The translations under genes and the position numbers were made by a program. Positions 11,308-28,339 of a stretch of 32,373 nucleotides of DNA are shown here, piece after piece. How positions within the stretch are numbered: position 1 is the first letter of the stretch; each line of letters begins with the position of its first letter. The notes beneath the pieces are model-generated. The model worked only from the letters and a program-made list of their open reading frames with translations. It was not told where the DNA came from and searched no databases. The stretch is from assembly GCA_030041545.1 (NCBI GenBank), contig JASHNQ010000049.1, forward strand, positions 1 through 32,373. Direction: 5' to 3'. Origin of the DNA: a candidate division FCPU426 bacterium. Lineage in GTDB: Bacteria; Oederibacteriota; Muellerivitia; Muellerivitales; Muellerivitaceae.

Positions 11308-12312
11308 CTAAGGTTTCAGCCAGCCTGCCTTTAAATAAAACTCCACCGTCTTCCGTATCCCTTTTTCAATATCCATCCGGGGTTTGAACCCCAATTCCCG
11401 TTGAATCTTCCGGCTGTTGCAAACCCAGCCGGGAGCCCTCCCCTCCTTGACTTTGTCGCTGCTGACAATGGGAGGGAGAAAGGATTTCCCCGTCCAACGG
11501 GCGGTCCAGTCCCCCAATGAAGCCACTATTCTAACGATTCCTAATGGAACATTGAAAGTTTTATACGTTTTTTTCAGGGTCTTCCCGATTTGGGCGGATA
11601 ATTCGTTCCAATCACAACTTTTTCCATCGGAAACAAAGTAAGTTTGGCCCTTGGCCCTGAATGAATGGGCGGCCAAGAGGATGGCTTCCACCAAGTCGTC
11701 CACGTAGATAAAACTGACCCTTTGAGTACCGTCCCCCCCATTGACAACCAGCCCCTGGCGGACCCTTTTGAAGTATTCAAAAATGTCCGTTTCCCGGGGC
11801 CCATAAACGGCACCGGGCCTCAAAATCGTCACTTCGAATCTTTTTCGGAACGACAGGGCCGTTTCCTCGCCCATCCGCTTGGTTTGTCCATAAAAACTCA
11901 CGGGACGACAACGCGTGCGCTCGTCGATCTCCCCGCCCTTTGGCGACGGGCCTGCGGCAGAAAGTGAACTCACGTAAACCAGCCTTTTGACTCCCTTTTC
12001 TCCCGCGGCCGCCTCGCAAACGTTCCTCGTCCCTTCCACGTTGACCTTCGCATAAGCCGAAAAGTCCGCACCCCTCAAGAGCCCAGCCAAGTGATAGACG
12101 ATCTTGACACCCTTTACGGCTTTCCGGATGGATTCCAAATCCGTCACGTCACCATAGCACAATTCCATGAAGGAGCTTGGTTTGAAAGGAAGCCGGCTCG
12201 TGGGGCGGACCAATAGTTTGACGCGGACCTTACGGCGGGCGATGGCCTCAGCAAGGTGGCTCCCGACAAAACCGCTGGCCCCGGTGATTAGGGAAGATGT
12301 TCGTAAATTCAC
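11308..12312 (-). CDS. NAD-dependent SDR epimerase/dehydratase family protein, candidate ceramide reductase (CerR-like)
   Basis: An extended short-chain dehydrogenase of 334 aa. The nucleotide-binding motif G11-A-S-G14-F-V-G17 sits at the very N-terminus and the catalytic Y141-G-Q-T-K145 follows SSLSAAG. I chose the GTG at 12310-12312, preceded by GGAAGA. The open frame could begin at a TTG at 12519, but the extra 69 residues look non-homologous to the family. It lies divergent from a serine palmitoyltransferase-like gene and a GNAT gene. In Caulobacter an SDR of this kind (CerR) reduces the 3-keto group in ceramide synthesis. That role is inferred from context; other options are a sugar-nucleotide epimerase or a hydroxysteroid-type dehydrogenase. 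Confidence 0.8.
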   Translation of the reverse strand: MNLRTSSLITGASGFVGSHLAEAIARRKVRVKLLVRPTSRLPFKPSSFMELCYGDVTDLESIRKAVKGVKIVYHLAGLLRGADFSAYAKVNVEGTRNVCEAAAGEKGVKRLVYVSSLSAAGPSPKGGEIDERTRCRPVSFYGQTKRMGEETALSFRKRFEVTILRPGAVYGPRETDIFEYFKRVRQGLVVNGGDGTQRVSFIYVDDLVEAILLAAHSFRAKGQTYFVSDGKSCDWNELSAQIGKTLKKTYKTFNVPLGIVRIVASLGDWTARWTGKSFLPPIVSSDKVKEGRAPGWVCNSRKIQRELGFKPRMDIEKGIRKTVEFYLKAGWLKP

Positions 12313-12411
12313 ATGAGTCTTCCAAAAAGGATGAGAGGGCTTGGTTTTCAGCTTATTCACCCCAAGGCCACGAAAAGAGAATACGGGGGGCGGTTCCCAA
12401 TGGCAAAATGT

Positions 12412-12441
12412 TTGAATCGGAAGGGGGCCTACGTTTATAAT
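12412..12441 (+). promoter_or_regulatory. Candidate promoter of the serine palmitoyltransferase-like gene
   Basis: -35 TTGAAT (12412-12417), 18-nt spacer, perfect -10 TATAAT (12436-12441). It would give a leader of about 195 nt before the ATG at 12644, containing the perfect inverted repeat at 12467-12486. Confidence 0.45.
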
Positions 12442-12466
12442 GCCCCTCACTTTGCCCTGAATTTTA

Positions 12467-12486
12467 AGGGGCCTTCCAAGGCCCCT
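12467..12486. repeat. Perfect palindrome in the divergent SDR/SPT promoter region
   Basis: AGGGGCCTT-CC-AAGGCCCCT is a 9-bp perfect inverted repeat with a 2-bp centre. It lies just downstream of the candidate plus-strand promoter. Its symmetry suits a dimeric repressor site or a transcript hairpin. The rest of the 331-bp gap (12313-12643) shows no other gene. Confidence 0.5.
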
Positions 12487-12643
12487 GGGCCGGATGTCTT
12501 TTACCATAAAAACGCCCAATCGTCAGCCTTTGGTTAAAACACCCATGAGCACTATTGAAGAGGTGTTTCCCTGAAACTTCAGTCTTCGGCATTGTTACTT
12601 TTCCGTAAACAGATGCTCATTTTTAAGAAATCAACGAGGGATC

Positions 12644-13840
12644 ATGGACATTTTCAATAAAGCCAATAATTGGACCGCTGCGGACGATGTTCGGAAGGCG
12701 GGCGTCTACCCTTATTTCCGGCCCAACACTTCACAGCTGGGCACAGAGGTCACTATTGGCGGCAAGAAAATGATCATGGTGGGTTCCAACAATTACTTGG
12801 GACTCGTCACCCATCCCGAGGTCCTAGAGGCTATGATCCAGGCCATCCGCAAGTATGGCTCGGCCTGCACCGGCTCCCCTTTCCTGAACGGCACCCTGGA
12901 CATCCGGGTGGAATTGGAGGAAAGGCTCGCAGATTTCGTGCGCATGGAATCGGCGCTGGTTTATTCAACCGGCTTCCTGGCCAATCTGGGGGCCCTCTCC
13001 ACCATTGCTACGCGGGGTGACTATATCCTCTCCGACCGCGAAAACCATGCCTCCATCGTGGACGGTTGCAAGCTTTCCTTCGCCAAGACCGTCAAATACG
13101 AACACAATAACGTCGAAGACCTGGAAAGGGTCCTTGCCAACCATAAAGGGAACCCCATGTTGATCGTCACTGACGGCGTCTTCTCCATGGGAGGCGACGT
13201 CACCGAATTACCTAAGATTGTAGAGCTAAAGAAGAAATATGGGGCGCGGCTAATGGTTGATGAAGCCCATTCTCTGGGTGTCCTAGGTCCCAACGGCGAA
13301 GGAACTGGAGCCCATTTCGGGGTTCAAAAGGATGTCGATATGGTCATGGGTACCTTTTCCAAGTCCTTGGTTTCCATTGGGGGATTCATCGCGTCCACCC
13401 ACAAGGTCATCGACTATTTGCGTCATAACAGCCGGCCTTTGATCTTCACCGCCAGCCTTTCCCCCGCCGACACGGCGGCGGCCCTCAAAAGCCTCGAAAT
13501 CATAAAGCGGGAACCCGATCGCAGGGAGCGCCTCTGGGCCATCATCCACCGTATGCGCTCCGAGTTCAAAGCCATGGGGTGGAACACACTCAACACCAAC
13601 TCGGCCATCATTCCCCTCATGGTGGGAGACAATATGAAGACCTTTGCCATGACCAAGGAACTGGGGGAAATGGGGGTTTTCGCAACGCCTGTCGTCTCCC
13701 CGGCTGTTCCACCCGAATCGACGCTCATCCGCACCAGTTACACCGCGACCCACACCGACGCCCAACTTAGTCACGTCCTAGAGTGCTTCCACAAGGTCGG
13801 CCGAAAGTACGGCATTATCCCTTCCGGCGTGCCCGTCTGA
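12644..13840 (+). CDS. spt: Alpha-oxoamine synthase, probable serine palmitoyltransferase
   Basis: A 398-aa PLP enzyme of the family that condenses an amino acid with an acyl thioester (Spt, BioF, Kbl, HemA). The PLP lysine is K240 in GTFSKSLVSIGGF. Stacking histidine H135 lies in ENHAS, and D206-E-A-H209 contacts the cofactor. The substrate motif GSNNYLGL lies at 47-54 and GSPFLNGT at 77-84. The GTFSKSL-SIGGF form is the one I associate with bacterial serine palmitoyltransferases, and a GNAT and an SDR flank the gene, so sphingoid-base synthesis is favoured over biotin (no other bio gene is near) or threonine breakdown. The product would be 3-ketosphinganine-type base. The ATG start has GAGG within ACGAGGGATC upstream. 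Confidence 0.82.
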   Translation: MDIFNKANNWTAADDVRKAGVYPYFRPNTSQLGTEVTIGGKKMIMVGSNNYLGLVTHPEVLEAMIQAIRKYGSACTGSPFLNGTLDIRVELEERLADFVRMESALVYSTGFLANLGALSTIATRGDYILSDRENHASIVDGCKLSFAKTVKYEHNNVEDLERVLANHKGNPMLIVTDGVFSMGGDVTELPKIVELKKKYGARLMVDEAHSLGVLGPNGEGTGAHFGVQKDVDMVMGTFSKSLVSIGGFIASTHKVIDYLRHNSRPLIFTASLSPADTAAALKSLEIIKREPDRRERLWAIIHRMRSEFKAMGWNTLNTNSAIIPLMVGDNMKTFAMTKELGEMGVFATPVVSPAVPPESTLIRTSYTATHTDAQLSHVLECFHKVGRKYGIIPSGVPV

Positions 13841-14018
13841 ACTTCGGCCGGGTTACACCATGGTAACAGAAATGAAGAAGGGATTTTTTATCAGCTCTAT
13901 TCGTGATTTTTGTTGTAATCTAGGGTCCCTTATCCCTTCGACTTAAATCAAAGCCAATAGCGTCTAAAGTAAACCGTAGAATTTAATTCCATTTTGGTTT
14001 CTATTGAAGGAGGAGCCA

Positions 14019-15218
14019 ATGGCCGTCGCGATGGAATCCGTTGGATCGGAAAGAACTGAAACCGGCAAAATCGCCGTGGCCGTGAAACAAATCGATTTGA
14101 ACGACAAAAAAAGCATTGAGGCCTTCCTGCATCTTCCCTGGAAAATCTACGTGACTCCAGACGGCAAGCGTGACCCCAATTGGGTGCCTCCCTTCCTGGA
14201 CGACCAACGCAGCCTCTTGAACCCCGCCAAGAATCCCTATCATCAGCATTCCCGTACGCGGCTTTTTATGGCTTACAACGACAAGGGCGAACCGGTAGGC
14301 CGCATCTCCGCCAGCGTGGATGACAATTTCATCAACTTTCACAATGAAAAAATAGGTTTCTTTGGGTGGTTCGAGTGTATCAATGACGCCTCCGTGGCCC
14401 ATGCTTTATTCCGGGAGGCTGAAAAATTTATGAAGGAGCAAGGCATGGTGGGTGCCCGTGGCCCCGCCAGTTTCACCTCGAACGACGACTACTTCGGCTT
14501 CCTGCTCGATGGCTACGACTCCCCCGCCCGCATTGCCATGACTTATAACCCGCCCTACTATCTTTCGTTGGCGGAGAAGTGCGGATATCTCAAGGCCAAG
14601 GACCTTTATGCCTGGTACCTCCCTGCCGAAGGACCCCTTCCCGAGCGCATGGTCAAGATCGCCGAGCGCACCATGAAGCGCGAAAACATTACCGTCCGCC
14701 CGCTGGACATGAAAAATTTCGACCGGGATACAAATATCGTCCGGGAGCTTTACAACAAGATTTGGGAGAAAAACTGGGGATTTGTCCCCTTGACCGAGGC
14801 CGAGTTCCAATACCAGGCCAAGAAACTCAAGGATATTATCTGGCCCGACTTCATCCATATCGCCGAGGTGAACGGGAAGGCCATCGGTTTCAACCTGGTG
14901 GTTAAGGATGTCAACCAGGCCCTGATCAAGATGGACGGGGAGCTCTTCTCCCTCCACGATCCTTTCGCCCTTTTCAAGTTCTTTTTTACCAATTTCAACG
15001 ACACCCGTGAAATGGCGATGGGAGTCCATCCCGATTACCGTAAAAAAGGCCTTGAGGTAATCCTTTATCTGGAAGCCCTCAAGACCGGCATCAAGCGCAA
15101 GATCAAAGGCGGGGAGCTCTCCTGGACACTAGAAGACAATGAAGGGATCAACAACGGAATCGCTGCTATGGGCGGGAAGATCATCAAAAAATACCGAATC
15201 TATGAAAAAACCCTTTAA
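14019..15218 (+). CDS. Large GNAT-fold acyltransferase, candidate bacterial ceramide synthase (bCerS-like)
   Basis: A roughly 399-aa protein of a GNAT-superfamily group recognisable by FLHLPWKIY, DPNWVPPFLDDQ and a later YNPPYYLSLAEKCGY. The C-terminal acetyl-CoA-type loop reads VHPDYRKKGLE. The frame opens at a TTG at 14004, but that TTG lies just before GAAGGAGGAGCC, a strong ribosome site, so ATG at 14019 is the start. It follows the Spt-like gene by 178 bp on the same strand. In Caulobacter a GNAT-type acyltransferase (bCerS) N-acylates the sphingoid base, so this is a good candidate for that step. The family is widespread and other N-acyltransferase roles remain possible. Confidence 0.7.
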   Translation: MAVAMESVGSERTETGKIAVAVKQIDLNDKKSIEAFLHLPWKIYVTPDGKRDPNWVPPFLDDQRSLLNPAKNPYHQHSRTRLFMAYNDKGEPVGRISASVDDNFINFHNEKIGFFGWFECINDASVAHALFREAEKFMKEQGMVGARGPASFTSNDDYFGFLLDGYDSPARIAMTYNPPYYLSLAEKCGYLKAKDLYAWYLPAEGPLPERMVKIAERTMKRENITVRPLDMKNFDRDTNIVRELYNKIWEKNWGFVPLTEAEFQYQAKKLKDIIWPDFIHIAEVNGKAIGFNLVVKDVNQALIKMDGELFSLHDPFALFKFFFTNFNDTREMAMGVHPDYRKKGLEVILYLEALKTGIKRKIKGGELSWTLEDNEGINNGIAAMGGKIIKKYRIYEKTL

Positions 15219-15249: not shown

Positions 15250-15702
15250 TTACGCCTGAGCGGTAGATGGGCCCAGTGGGGAAGAGGCCCCACGCCCCAC
15301 GGCGGAACGCAGCATCTTCACCAGGGTATCCCCCTCGAAATGACCTTTGACGAAGAAATTCTTGGCGCCTTTGCGCAAGGCCTCGAGGGCCAGTTCCGGG
15401 TCGTTGTAACCGGAAAGCACGATGATGGGGACCTTGGGCTTCAACTTATGAACCCGTTCCAGCGGCTCCAGTCCAAGGAAAATGGGAAGCGATAGGTCCA
15501 GGAGAACAGCGTCGACCTTTTCCGCTTGGAGCCGCTTCATGGCCAAGTCCAGGTCGGTGGCTTGGATCAACTCGAATTCCCCCGACCCGGATTTTCCCAG
15601 CGTCTCCACAAGCAAGAAAACGTCGGCCCGGTTGTCCTCGACCAAAAGAACCTTAATTTTTTTATCTCCTGTCGTTTTTTCCACTACTGCCCTGTCGATC
15701 AT
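15250..15702 (-). CDS. Single-domain response regulator
   Basis: A 150-aa CheY-like receiver domain with no output domain. The acidic pair E22-D23 lies in LLVEDN and the phospho-acceptor is D69 in LLDLSLP. The switch Ser is S97 in VLSGYND and the conserved Lys K119 is in FFVKG. The frame opens at GTG 15708, but that codon is part of the ribosome site GGGGAGGTG, so ATG at 15700-15702 is the start. No kinase lies nearby, so its partner is unlinked. It is convergent with the GNAT gene (31-bp gap). A similar regulator follows in the same direction 170 bp upstream, probably a diverged paralogue. Confidence 0.88.
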   Translation of the reverse strand: MIDRAVVEKTTGDKKIKVLLVEDNRADVFLLVETLGKSGSGEFELIQATDLDLAMKRLQAEKVDAVLLDLSLPIFLGLEPLERVHKLKPKVPIIVLSGYNDPELALEALRKGAKNFFVKGHFEGDTLVKMLRSAVGRGASSPLGPSTAQA

Positions 15703-15874
15703 GGACACCTCCCCATCTGCTTTCTAGTTGCACCTGTTCCGTCATTCAAAACGAAAACCCTGCATATAAGTCCACCCGGATGGATTTATTTTCTTCGACG
15801 AACCTTCCTCGGGAAATTCCCCATGGTCCCTAAGGCTTCCGGAACCACTCCACTGGGGCCAAACTTGAACCTGC

Positions 15875-16264
15875 TTAAGCGGTGGATGGAAACCCGGCGT
15901 AATAACGGAAAGCCCGCACCAGGTTTTTTGCGTCCAACCATTCCTTATTAAAAAAACAGCAGGCCCCCAGGCGTAAAGAGTGGACCGCCAGCCAGTCGGC
16001 ATAAACACCCGTAAAAACGATAACGGGTGTTCGAGGAGCAACTTCCTTCACCCTTTCGAGTGTTTCCAAACCGGAACTTCCCGGCAGGAAAAGATCTAAG
16101 AGGATCAAGCCAATTTCATCCGTTGAAACGCGCCGCAAACCCTGTTCCAAGGTTAGCTCGTGCACCAAGTCGAATTGATTTTCCATATAAGGCTTTAACG
16201 CCTCTTTCAATAAGCGCGCATCGGCCGGGTTGTCCTCGATTGCCAATACCCTTAATTTCTCCAT
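15875..16264 (-). CDS. Single-domain response regulator
   Basis: A 129-aa receiver domain: E10-D11 in AIEDN, phospho-acceptor D57 in LLDLFLP, switch Thr T85 in VFTG and Lys K107 in CFFNKEW. I use the ATG at 16262-16264 because the domain begins at once (MEKLRVLAIEDN) and GAGGAG precedes it closely. An upstream in-frame ATG at 16288 would add eight residues without a good ribosome site. There is no output domain and no kinase gene nearby. It lies 172 bp upstream of the other single-domain regulator, so they may form a small phosphorelay or chemotaxis-like pair. Confidence 0.85.
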   Translation of the reverse strand: MEKLRVLAIEDNPADARLLKEALKPYMENQFDLVHELTLEQGLRRVSTDEIGLILLDLFLPGSSGLETLERVKEVAPRTPVIVFTGVYADWLAVHSLRLGACCFFNKEWLDAKNLVRAFRYYAGFPSTA

Positions 16265-16916
16265 TTCTCCTCGTTCAAACACGTCCATCCAACAATGATT
16301 CCCCTTGTTTTTACCCTACCACTTTTCTTGTTCTTAAATCTTCAATAGTCCCTAAAAACCCTATGATTGTAGGAACAGATTGGAAGAGATGCACGGAATT
16401 GCCTTAAAACACGGTATCGTGCTCAGTTAAAAAACTAACACCCTAAAATTTTCCAAACTCGCAGTTAAGGAAATCGCATAACCCAATTCAGATATTTTGT
16501 CGCTTGCAAATCTTTCCGCGGGGAAAAAGTTCATCTTCGAGCATTATCGTTCTTGAAAAAGCCGGACAACGCTTGGACTTCGGAGGACGCTCGGCCGTTT
16601 TGGGGACCTTAACAATTCATTGGACCTCTTAAAAAGTCACAAAAGCATTATTTCAGGGTATTTTAACGACGAAAGCCCCCACAACCAAGACAGCTGAAAT
16701 TGAACCCGTTAGCCAACCAAAATCGACCCAAAGGCATAAGGCGAAACAAAGAACGAACGGTTTTCTCAAACCTAAAAGGATTCGCTCCGTCAAGCCGATA
16801 GCCAACCCGCCAACCGACGGGTTGGATGTTTTATCGGACGATTGCGCAAATTCAGTGCCATGCGCCCTCAAATCGACTTTTTAACGGATTTAAAACTCTC
16901 CTTAAAAAACGAGCTG
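16265..16916. other. Long intergenic region upstream of the insertion sequence
   Basis: About 650 bp with no convincing gene. A 72-codon minus-strand frame with a TTG start (16653-16871) is hydrophobic at its end but has no ribosome site. A hairpin at 16802-16825 (CCAACCCG/CGGGTTGG) is perfect over 8 bp. The A/T-rich part nearest 16290 should hold the promoter of the response regulators, but I see no clear boxes. Confidence 0.4.
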
Positions 16917-26997: not shown

Positions 26998-27405
26998 TCA
27001 ACCGCGGTTTTTGTATTGCCGCAGTATTTCGTTGATCTTGGCTTCCAAATCATTTTCTTCGGGAGTATTGTCCAGGCCCAAAAAGCGGTTCAAGGCGATA
27101 CGAGTGACCACGCTGCCCCTCAGACGCTTGTCCCCTTCGTTAAGCTGTTCCAGGATCCGGATTTGGAGAAAACGAAGTTTGGAGCTTTTTTGTTTCCCGT
27201 CGATCTTAACACGCCGCGAACCCGCGGGCAGGGAAGCATTCCGCAAAGCGGTCAATTTCTCCGTTGTCTTTTCCACCTGGGTTTTCTCCGGGAAATAAAC
27301 TTTCTCGGCGGACTCTTTGGAGTTCTCTTCCCTCTCCTGGCGCAAAGCTTCCAAGCGCCGGATTTGTTTTTCGGCCTCAGTTAAATGCTTCTCTGGGTCG
27401 CTCAC
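26998..27405 (-). CDS. Small charged coiled-coil protein of unknown function
   Basis: A protein of about 135 residues that I do not recognise. Residues 5-50 form a highly charged coiled coil (EKHLTEAEKQIRRLEALRQEREEN). A basic helical C-terminal part (KSSKLRFLQIRILEQLNEGDKRLRGSVVTRIALNRFLGLD) could bind nucleic acid or a partner. I chose GTG at 27403-27405, with GAGGG 8 nt upstream; an ATG at 27423 is also possible. Either way the start lies inside the end of the PAP2-like gene, so the two are translationally linked. The role is unknown. Confidence 0.55.
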   Translation of the reverse strand: MSDPEKHLTEAEKQIRRLEALRQEREENSKESAEKVYFPEKTQVEKTTEKLTALRNASLPAGSRRVKIDGKQKSSKLRFLQIRILEQLNEGDKRLRGSVVTRIALNRFLGLDNTPEENDLEAKINEILRQYKNRG

Positions 27406-28339
27406 GGGCGAATCCCTCTTCATTGAAGATAAAAGGCCACTTCTTTTCCAGCCAGGGGGCCACAAAATAACAGCATAACCCTACCCCTAAACCGGTAACC
27501 ACATCAACGAAATAATGATAGCGCCCGTAAATGGTGCCCGCAAACAACATCAAGGTTAAAAACAGGACGCAAAAACGCCATTTTCCGAAATAAGGAAAGG
27601 CCATTAGGCAGATGACCGAAGCGGCGATGTGGGAGCTGGGGAAGGAACCGCCCGGAAAGGCATTTTGGTCCACCACCGATTGCAGCCAATCGGAGACCCA
27701 ATAACCCTTCAAGGATTCCCTTAACCCCGGCATGTAAAACCGGGGGCTTTCCGCCGGCAGGAAGATGAAAAGGATGTAGTGGAGAAAGTAAGTGAAACTA
27801 AGCGCGAACATAAAGGTGCGGAATTTGGAAAGCGGCGCCCGAAAATAAAGCGCCAGCGCCGAGAGGGGCAGCAGAAGGAAATAAAAACTGTAGCCAATGC
27901 TGAAAAATTCGTTCAAAAGGCGGCCCGGCTGATAAAAGCGCTGTAAATTCCAAATTCTCATTCCGATCTTCCCCATTTCCTCATCCACGCTGAAGAGCCA
28001 TTCGTCCAGTGTCCAATCAAAAAATTGGTGTACTAAAAGACCAACCTCGCGGTAAAAGAAAATCATGACAGCCAGGGGATAAAACTCGCGGGCAAAGGCA
28101 ACCACGGCGTTTGAAAAATTCCGGAGGTTCCAAAGGGCCACAAGGAGGGCGAGAAAGGCCAGGATGTGGTACCCCACTAACCGTATTTTATCGTCAGCCG
28201 GGAGGCTACCCGCCAGGATCAAAACCGACACCACCACCTGGTAAAGCAGCACCAGTGAATCAACGGGCTTGATCCAGGGATCCTTCGCCTTGCCGGTCTT
28301 TGGGAAATTAGCCGTCGAATTCATGGTTAGCCTATCCAT
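27377..28339 (-). CDS. PAP2-superfamily membrane protein, Aur1-like
   Basis: A 320-aa membrane protein with about six hydrophobic helices. The PAP2 signature motifs are FPSSH at 233-237 and GRYHYFVD with R273, H275 and D279, giving the two catalytic histidines and the Asp. The first lipid-phosphatase motif KxxxxxxRP is not obvious, which fits the PAP2_3 (Aur1/inositol-phosphorylceramide-synthase-like) branch better than classic phosphatases. It probably moves a phospho-head-group on or off a lipid at the outer face of the inner membrane. The first ATG is used; another lies five codons later. It is placed between a small unknown gene and the glycoside hydrolase-like gene. Confidence 0.75.
   Translation of the reverse strand: MDRLTMNSTANFPKTGKAKDPWIKPVDSLVLLYQVVVSVLILAGSLPADDKIRLVGYHILAFLALLVALWNLRNFSNAVVAFAREFYPLAVMIFFYREVGLLVHQFFDWTLDEWLFSVDEEMGKIGMRIWNLQRFYQPGRLLNEFFSIGYSFYFLLLPLSALALYFRAPLSKFRTFMFALSFTYFLHYILFIFLPAESPRFYMPGLRESLKGYWVSDWLQSVVDQNAFPGGSFPSSHIAASVICLMAFPYFGKWRFCVLFLTLMLFAGTIYGRYHYFVDVVTGLGVGLCCYFVAPWLEKKWPFIFNEEGFARERPREAFN

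Follow-up and report, generated by a model that had tools for sequence, protein, structure and literature searches.

A candidate ceramide synthesis locus with adjacent Spt and bCerS-like genes in an uncultured Oederibacteriota bacterium

Sphingolipids are membrane lipids that were formerly thought to be mainly eukaryotic, and ceramide is their core. The ceramide genes described in Caulobacter, Escherichia coli B and Sphingomonas are aasR, cerR, acpR, spt and cerS (PMC9386255, PMC11324152, PMC11087976), of which spt encodes serine palmitoyltransferase (Spt), cerS the bacterial ceramide synthase (bCerS) and cerR the reductase CerR. Bacteroidota usually carry these three genes unclustered (PMC11334938), and the Sphingobacterium-type Spt (PDB 3a2b; NCBIfam NF047600) has no dedicated acyl carrier protein (ACP). 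In the Black Sea alone, 38 phyla have been reported to carry clusters of Spt, bCerS and CerR (PMC11334938). Here we analyze a stretch of 32,373 nucleotides, the whole of which we call the window, from a candidate division FCPU426 bacterium (phylum Oederibacteriota, family Muellerivitaceae; contig JASHNQ010000049.1, positions 1 to 32,373). It contains three neighboring genes, for an Spt-like enzyme, a GNAT-type acyltransferase and a short-chain dehydrogenase/reductase (SDR), that very probably make a ceramide backbone by way of Spt, bCerS and CerR.

The content of the locus is that of the Caulobacter, E. coli B and Sphingomonas genes, with an Spt, a CerS (YghO/CC_1154) and a CerR (CC_1164). It differs from them in that neither AcpR nor AasR is encoded nearby, in that the Spt and CerS genes are adjacent and co-directional with cerR divergent, and in that its Spt belongs to another subgroup. 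By sequence, the closest characterized Spt is that of the Sphingobacterium type, which likewise lacks a dedicated ACP; the window Spt is about 50% identical to it and lies under the NCBIfam cut-off. The three genes are clustered here, in contrast to the Bacteroidota. Judged by its published description, the Black Sea Spt-like clade B with nearby bCerS and CerR resembles the locus in its three-gene content and its wide spread in uncultured phyla (PMC11334938). We therefore regard the locus as a well-supported further example of the known ceramide pathway in an uncultured lineage, and not as a new system.

An initial annotation of this DNA had proposed a candidate ceramide locus, and its three open reading frames and their arrangement are confirmed in the sequence. 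The SDR gene (11308-12312, minus strand, 334 aa) is divergent from a pair formed by the Spt gene (12644-13840, plus strand, 398 aa) and the GNAT gene (14004-15218, plus strand, 404 aa from a TTG, with a likely ATG start at 14022). The respective Pfam families are Epimerase-type, Aminotran_1_2 and Acetyltransf_1.

Identity of the three enzymes

The lysine motif noticed in the initial annotation, GTFSKSLVSIGGF, is present in the Spt-like protein, and the lysine that binds pyridoxal phosphate (PLP) is K240. This residue, together with H135 (the stacking histidine), D206 and H209 (the PLP site), R363 and A270, is as in the serine Spts. The best PDB match is the Sphingobacterium Spt 3a2b (406 bits), and further matches are the Sphingomonas Spt (295 bits), a cysteate C-fatty acyltransferase (266) and E. 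coli Kbl (264). Among NCBIfam models the ranking is SerpalmtaseCFB (517 bits), BioF (392) and then Kbl-related models (388 and 381). We built a maximum likelihood tree of 42 alpha-oxoamine synthases that included BioF, Kbl and ALAS but not SulA, the sulfonolipid enzyme considered below. In this tree the window protein falls within a clade of 34 rows, with support of 100/99, that contains all of the characterized Spts (Sphingobacterium, Sphingomonas, E. coli and Bacteroides) and excludes BioF, Kbl, ALAS and the BioF of the same genome. A firm grouping with BioF or Kbl, which the initial annotation had named as the outcome that would speak against it, was thus not seen. The genome's separate BioF, which at 456 bits passes its curated cut-off (426), is the sole other alpha-oxoamine synthase found in the search. 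On the basis of the tree placement and of this separate BioF, we reject a BioF or Kbl identity for the PLP enzyme.

One residue is of particular use. SulA has a lysine, Lys281, where Spts have alanine (PMC9304779). The equivalent position is alanine in 34/34 rows of the Spt clade, including Ala270 of the window protein, and threonine or asparagine in the 8 other rows (BioF, Kbl and ALAS). Because of Ala270, a BioF, Kbl or cysteate-enzyme identity is disfavored, although this residue would not separate the use of serine from that of alanine.

Full-length homology links the GNAT protein to E. coli YghO (33% identity, E 2e-62, 96% coverage of the reference) and to the Sphingomonas CerS (30% identity, E 3e-52, 99% coverage of the reference), where these E-values and those for the SDR were computed at a database size of 1e8. 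Both matches lie within the published limits for a bCerS call, an E-value of at most 1e-30 with at least 50% coverage (PMC11334938). The gene yghO has been placed in one ortholog set with CC_1154, which Caulobacter requires for dihydroceramide (PMC9386255). In E. coli 120899 the neighbors of yghO are spt and the genes for an ACP, an SDR and an acyl-AMP ligase, and the Sphingomonas reference cluster reads likewise. The AlphaFold model (pLDDT 90.6) has a tandem-GNAT fold, with 7q3a as its best PDB match (E 9e-15); tandem GNATs such as MAB_4324 and mycothiol synthase are among the matches, with N-myristoyltransferase lower down. The protein is a homologue of the YghO/CC_1154 group, and the separation from bCerS that the initial annotation had named as a contrary outcome was not seen.

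The SDR is of the extended, NAD(P)-dependent type, carries the motifs TGASGFVG and YxxxK (as YGQTK) and matches the Pfam families Epimerase and 3Beta_HSD. It is by a wide margin the best of 13 matches in the genome, with 117 bits against the E. coli CerR (next 44) and 108 against that of Sphingomonas (next 64). The corresponding values are E 7e-30 with 97% coverage and 2e-26 with 99% coverage; with these two proteins as the references, the E-values fall slightly outside the limit of 1e-30, while coverage is above 50%. HpnA and the sugar epimerases are the nearest named models, and the first NCBIfam profile is HpnA; the reference CerRs give this same HpnA-first result. When the SDRs tested are scored with a profile of the Spt-linked SDRs, the two CerRs come out on top, with 224 and 211 bits, and HpnA is next at 195. 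In a first tree of all rows, a badly trimmed row from the window's own genome (L188) joined a long branch, and for this reason two label changes were required. The rebuilt tree, in which the SDR is set against HpnA, LegB and paralogues from its own genome, omits seven long or poorly aligned rows, and in it CerR and the Spt-linked SDRs stand on one side of a branch with support of 90/91. The separation from CerR that the initial annotation had set as a test was not observed, and the protein is a homologue of the CC_1164 group. It is likely CerR, the weakest identity of the three. CerR is periplasmic and associated with the inner membrane (PMC11087976); in the 334-aa SDR, as in both of the proteobacterial CerRs, almost nothing precedes the Rossmann motif.

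Conservation of the gene trio

The layout of a minus-strand SDR followed by plus-strand Spt and GNAT genes is found in all six of the testable same-family genomes, in one of which the GNAT gene is cut by the contig end, and in one genome of the same order; in an eighth relative (G002) the contig stops just after Spt. In nine more distant genomes of the phylum, Spt and SDR remain divergent neighbors and the GNAT gene is elsewhere. A scan of named genomes by GNAT alone yielded 80 loci. The window's divergent layout occurs in 22 of these, all three genes are linked in 40, and Spt is linked with GNAT in 10 more. Contigs with this layout bear the titles Zixibacteria, Ignavibacteria, Bacteroidetes, Chlorobiota, Gemmatimonadota and Planctomycetota, and plasmids of Streptomyces and Rubrobacter carry Spt-GNAT-SDR operons. 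An Spt with E<=1e-90 is present in 37/40 genomes chosen by their GNAT, in many of them not adjacent to it. The three genes thus stay together in relatives and in other phyla, contrary to the lack of conserved linkage that the initial annotation had named as damaging to its proposal. Judged from these comparisons, the layout is old and widespread, and common to many uncultured phyla.

Around the window, 59 genomes were scored for co-occurrence. Both Spt and SDR are present in 26, Spt only in 1, SDR only in none, and neither in 32. For Spt and GNAT the equivalent numbers are 25 with both, 2 with Spt only, 7 with GNAT only and 25 with neither. In one genome of the same phylum (G032; L056:162-2561), Spt and GNAT form a single open frame of 799 codons, in which about 40 residues rich in Pro and Lys connect the two. 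This fusion is known from one genome, where a lost stop codon is possible; if real, it would tie Spt and GNAT functionally. The linkage, the co-occurrence and the fusion together support the earlier suggestion that the three enzymes act together.

Proposed pathway and alternative readings

Based on characterized homologues, from which we infer the substrates and the order of steps, Spt would join a fatty acyl thioester, probably acyl-CoA, to L-serine to give 3-ketosphinganine, which the tandem-GNAT bCerS would N-acylate. CerR would then reduce the 3-keto group with NAD(P)H, yielding (dihydro)ceramide. The Spt and bCerS genes form a tandem and would probably be co-transcribed, with CerR expressed divergently from a shared promoter region. 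By this analogy the organism would be expected to make sphingolipids.

Several observations weigh against this reading. The window Spt does not reach the curated NCBIfam cut-offs for Spt (516.8 against 640, 385.6 against 500 and 331.4 against 670), nor does it reach those for BioF and Kbl; the Spt models are narrow equivalogs, and because no cut-off of these three kinds is passed, the family call rests on the tree and the residues. The backbone of the SDR tree is poorly supported, and its CerR group has support of 90/91 once the seven rows are removed, while the GNAT tree was built without an outgroup of non-bCerS GNATs. In 7/59 genomes, from families f3, f9 and one other (for example L047, L051 and L054), bCerS-like GNATs occur without an Spt-type enzyme. 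Finally, shared ancestry among the 59 genomes makes the co-occurrence p-values too small, although the pattern is still clear.

Three other explanations deserve to be weighed. Since each protein comes from a large superfamily, and the SDR comes nearest, among named models, to HpnA and the sugar epimerases, a Kbl- or BioF-type enzyme, a sugar-nucleotide epimerase and an unrelated GNAT might be neighbors by chance. The characterized CerRs are also HpnA-first, and the linkage kept across family, order and other phyla, the near-perfect co-occurrence of Spt and SDR and the G032 fusion contradict this explanation, which we consider extremely improbable and reject. A sulfonolipid (capnine) locus would use a PLP enzyme (SulA/CFAT) to join an acyl thioester to cysteate, followed by N-acylation and reduction. 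SulA shares the alpha-oxoamine synthase fold of Spt and differs little from it in the active site (PMC9304779), and a cysteate enzyme is among the PDB matches given above. However, the window enzyme has Ala270 in place of Lys281 of SulA, and its 406 bits to Spt compare with 266 to the cysteate enzyme, the tree having no SulA row; we judge such a locus very unlikely and, in view of Ala270, reject it.

A further variant keeps the three steps but uses another amino acid, alanine or glycine, so that 1-deoxy-ceramides would result, or draws on unusual acyl donors. The 1-deoxy ceramides are counted among the products of the bacterial ceramide pathway (PMC11334938), and the residues compared cannot tell serine from alanine use. 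The nearest solved homologue, however, is a serine enzyme, and all of the catalytic residues compared are as in the serine Spts, so that this variant, too, seems unlikely. Ceramide synthesis from serine is the reading that we favor.

The initial annotation had remarked that no ACP or acyl-CoA ligase gene lies beside the trio, and that the acyl supply would differ from that of the Caulobacter cluster. The observation stands: a search of the window and Pfam scans of its main open reading frames found no AcpR, AasR or other ACP or acyl-ACP/CoA ligase, the search giving just a 21-aa chance match. The absence is not peculiar to this lineage, because the specialized AcpR and AasR are characteristic of the alpha-, beta- and gamma-proteobacteria, and Bacteroidetes Spts use acyl-CoA (PMC9386255, PMC11324152). 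The whole genome has two AMP-binding genes, both on other contigs, one of them long-chain acyl-CoA ligase-like. By analogy, acyl-CoA is the likely donor for Spt, while the use of acyl-ACP by SulA (PMC9304779) makes a housekeeping ACP a possible one. The window GNAT has an RxxG pyrophosphate-loop motif (YRKKGLE) that is absent from the proteobacterial CerS proteins of E. coli (YghO) and Sphingomonas (L080:9959-11101 and L036:15001-16152), which have a 3-residue insertion at this loop. This difference is possibly tied to a different acyl donor.

The arrangement of the genes may have implications for the order of the last two steps, which is disputed. A published statement based on Rhodobacteria holds that spt and cerR never share a unit with cerS (PMC11324152). 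The adjacent, co-directional Spt and GNAT genes with cerR apart, here and in most linked loci, contradict this statement. Their adjacency and fusion fit a model in which acylation precedes reduction (PMC11087976), although gene order is no proof. We give about even chances to the proposal that, outside the proteobacteria, the basic unit is a tandem Spt-bCerS, once fused, with CerR separate, such that the keto product passes from Spt directly to bCerS and is reduced last. If this is true, the unit bears on the dispute. The tandem and fused genes offer a way to test in which order bacteria build ceramide.

The intergenic region and flanking genes

The SDR frame of the initial annotation (11308-12519) was over-long. 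Homology begins near 12305, a GTG at 12312 is preceded by GGAAG, and in a same-genus relative (L064) the stretch upstream of the SDR start is out of the SDR frame. The gene probably starts at this GTG, and the true intergenic region would then be about 331 bp (12313-12643).

Within it lies a conserved promoter core, CAAAATGTTTGA-(20)-TATAAT (12404-12441, plus strand), which may be written CAAAATNTTTGA-TATAAT and includes an inverted repeat, CAAAATRTTTG, and a sigma-70-like match, TTGAAT-18-TATAAT. Most of 9 genomes from two families (f1 and f2) retain the core in slightly altered form, L043 being the weakest match, and CAAAATRTTTGA followed after 18-20 nt by TATAAT is seen across both. The pattern has one exact match in the 3.8-Mb genome, and a reversed control has none. 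We infer that the CAAAATRTTTGA-TATAAT element is the promoter of Spt-GNAT, and the inverted repeat over its -35 region may also serve the divergent SDR gene.

The initial annotation had also drawn attention to a perfect palindrome in this region. It exists, as AGGGGCCTT-CC-AAGGCCCCT at 12467-12486, and is improbable by chance, since 9-bp arms around a loop no longer than 2 were reached in 7/2000 shuffles, but it is no conserved part of the locus. It is retained, with paired changes, in L064 and is absent from the 7 other relatives compared. Because it is kept in one relative only and the promoter core is far better conserved, we reject the palindrome as a conserved regulatory site; it could possibly form a leader hairpin upstream of Spt.

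Two single-domain response regulators (15250-15708 and 15875-16288, both minus strand) lie just downstream of the GNAT gene and are convergent with it. A PAP2_3 membrane protein is encoded at 27377-28339 (minus strand), 12 kb from the ceramide locus. The PAP2_3 superfamily includes phosphosphingolipid head-group transferases, and by analogy with these the protein could act on ceramide.

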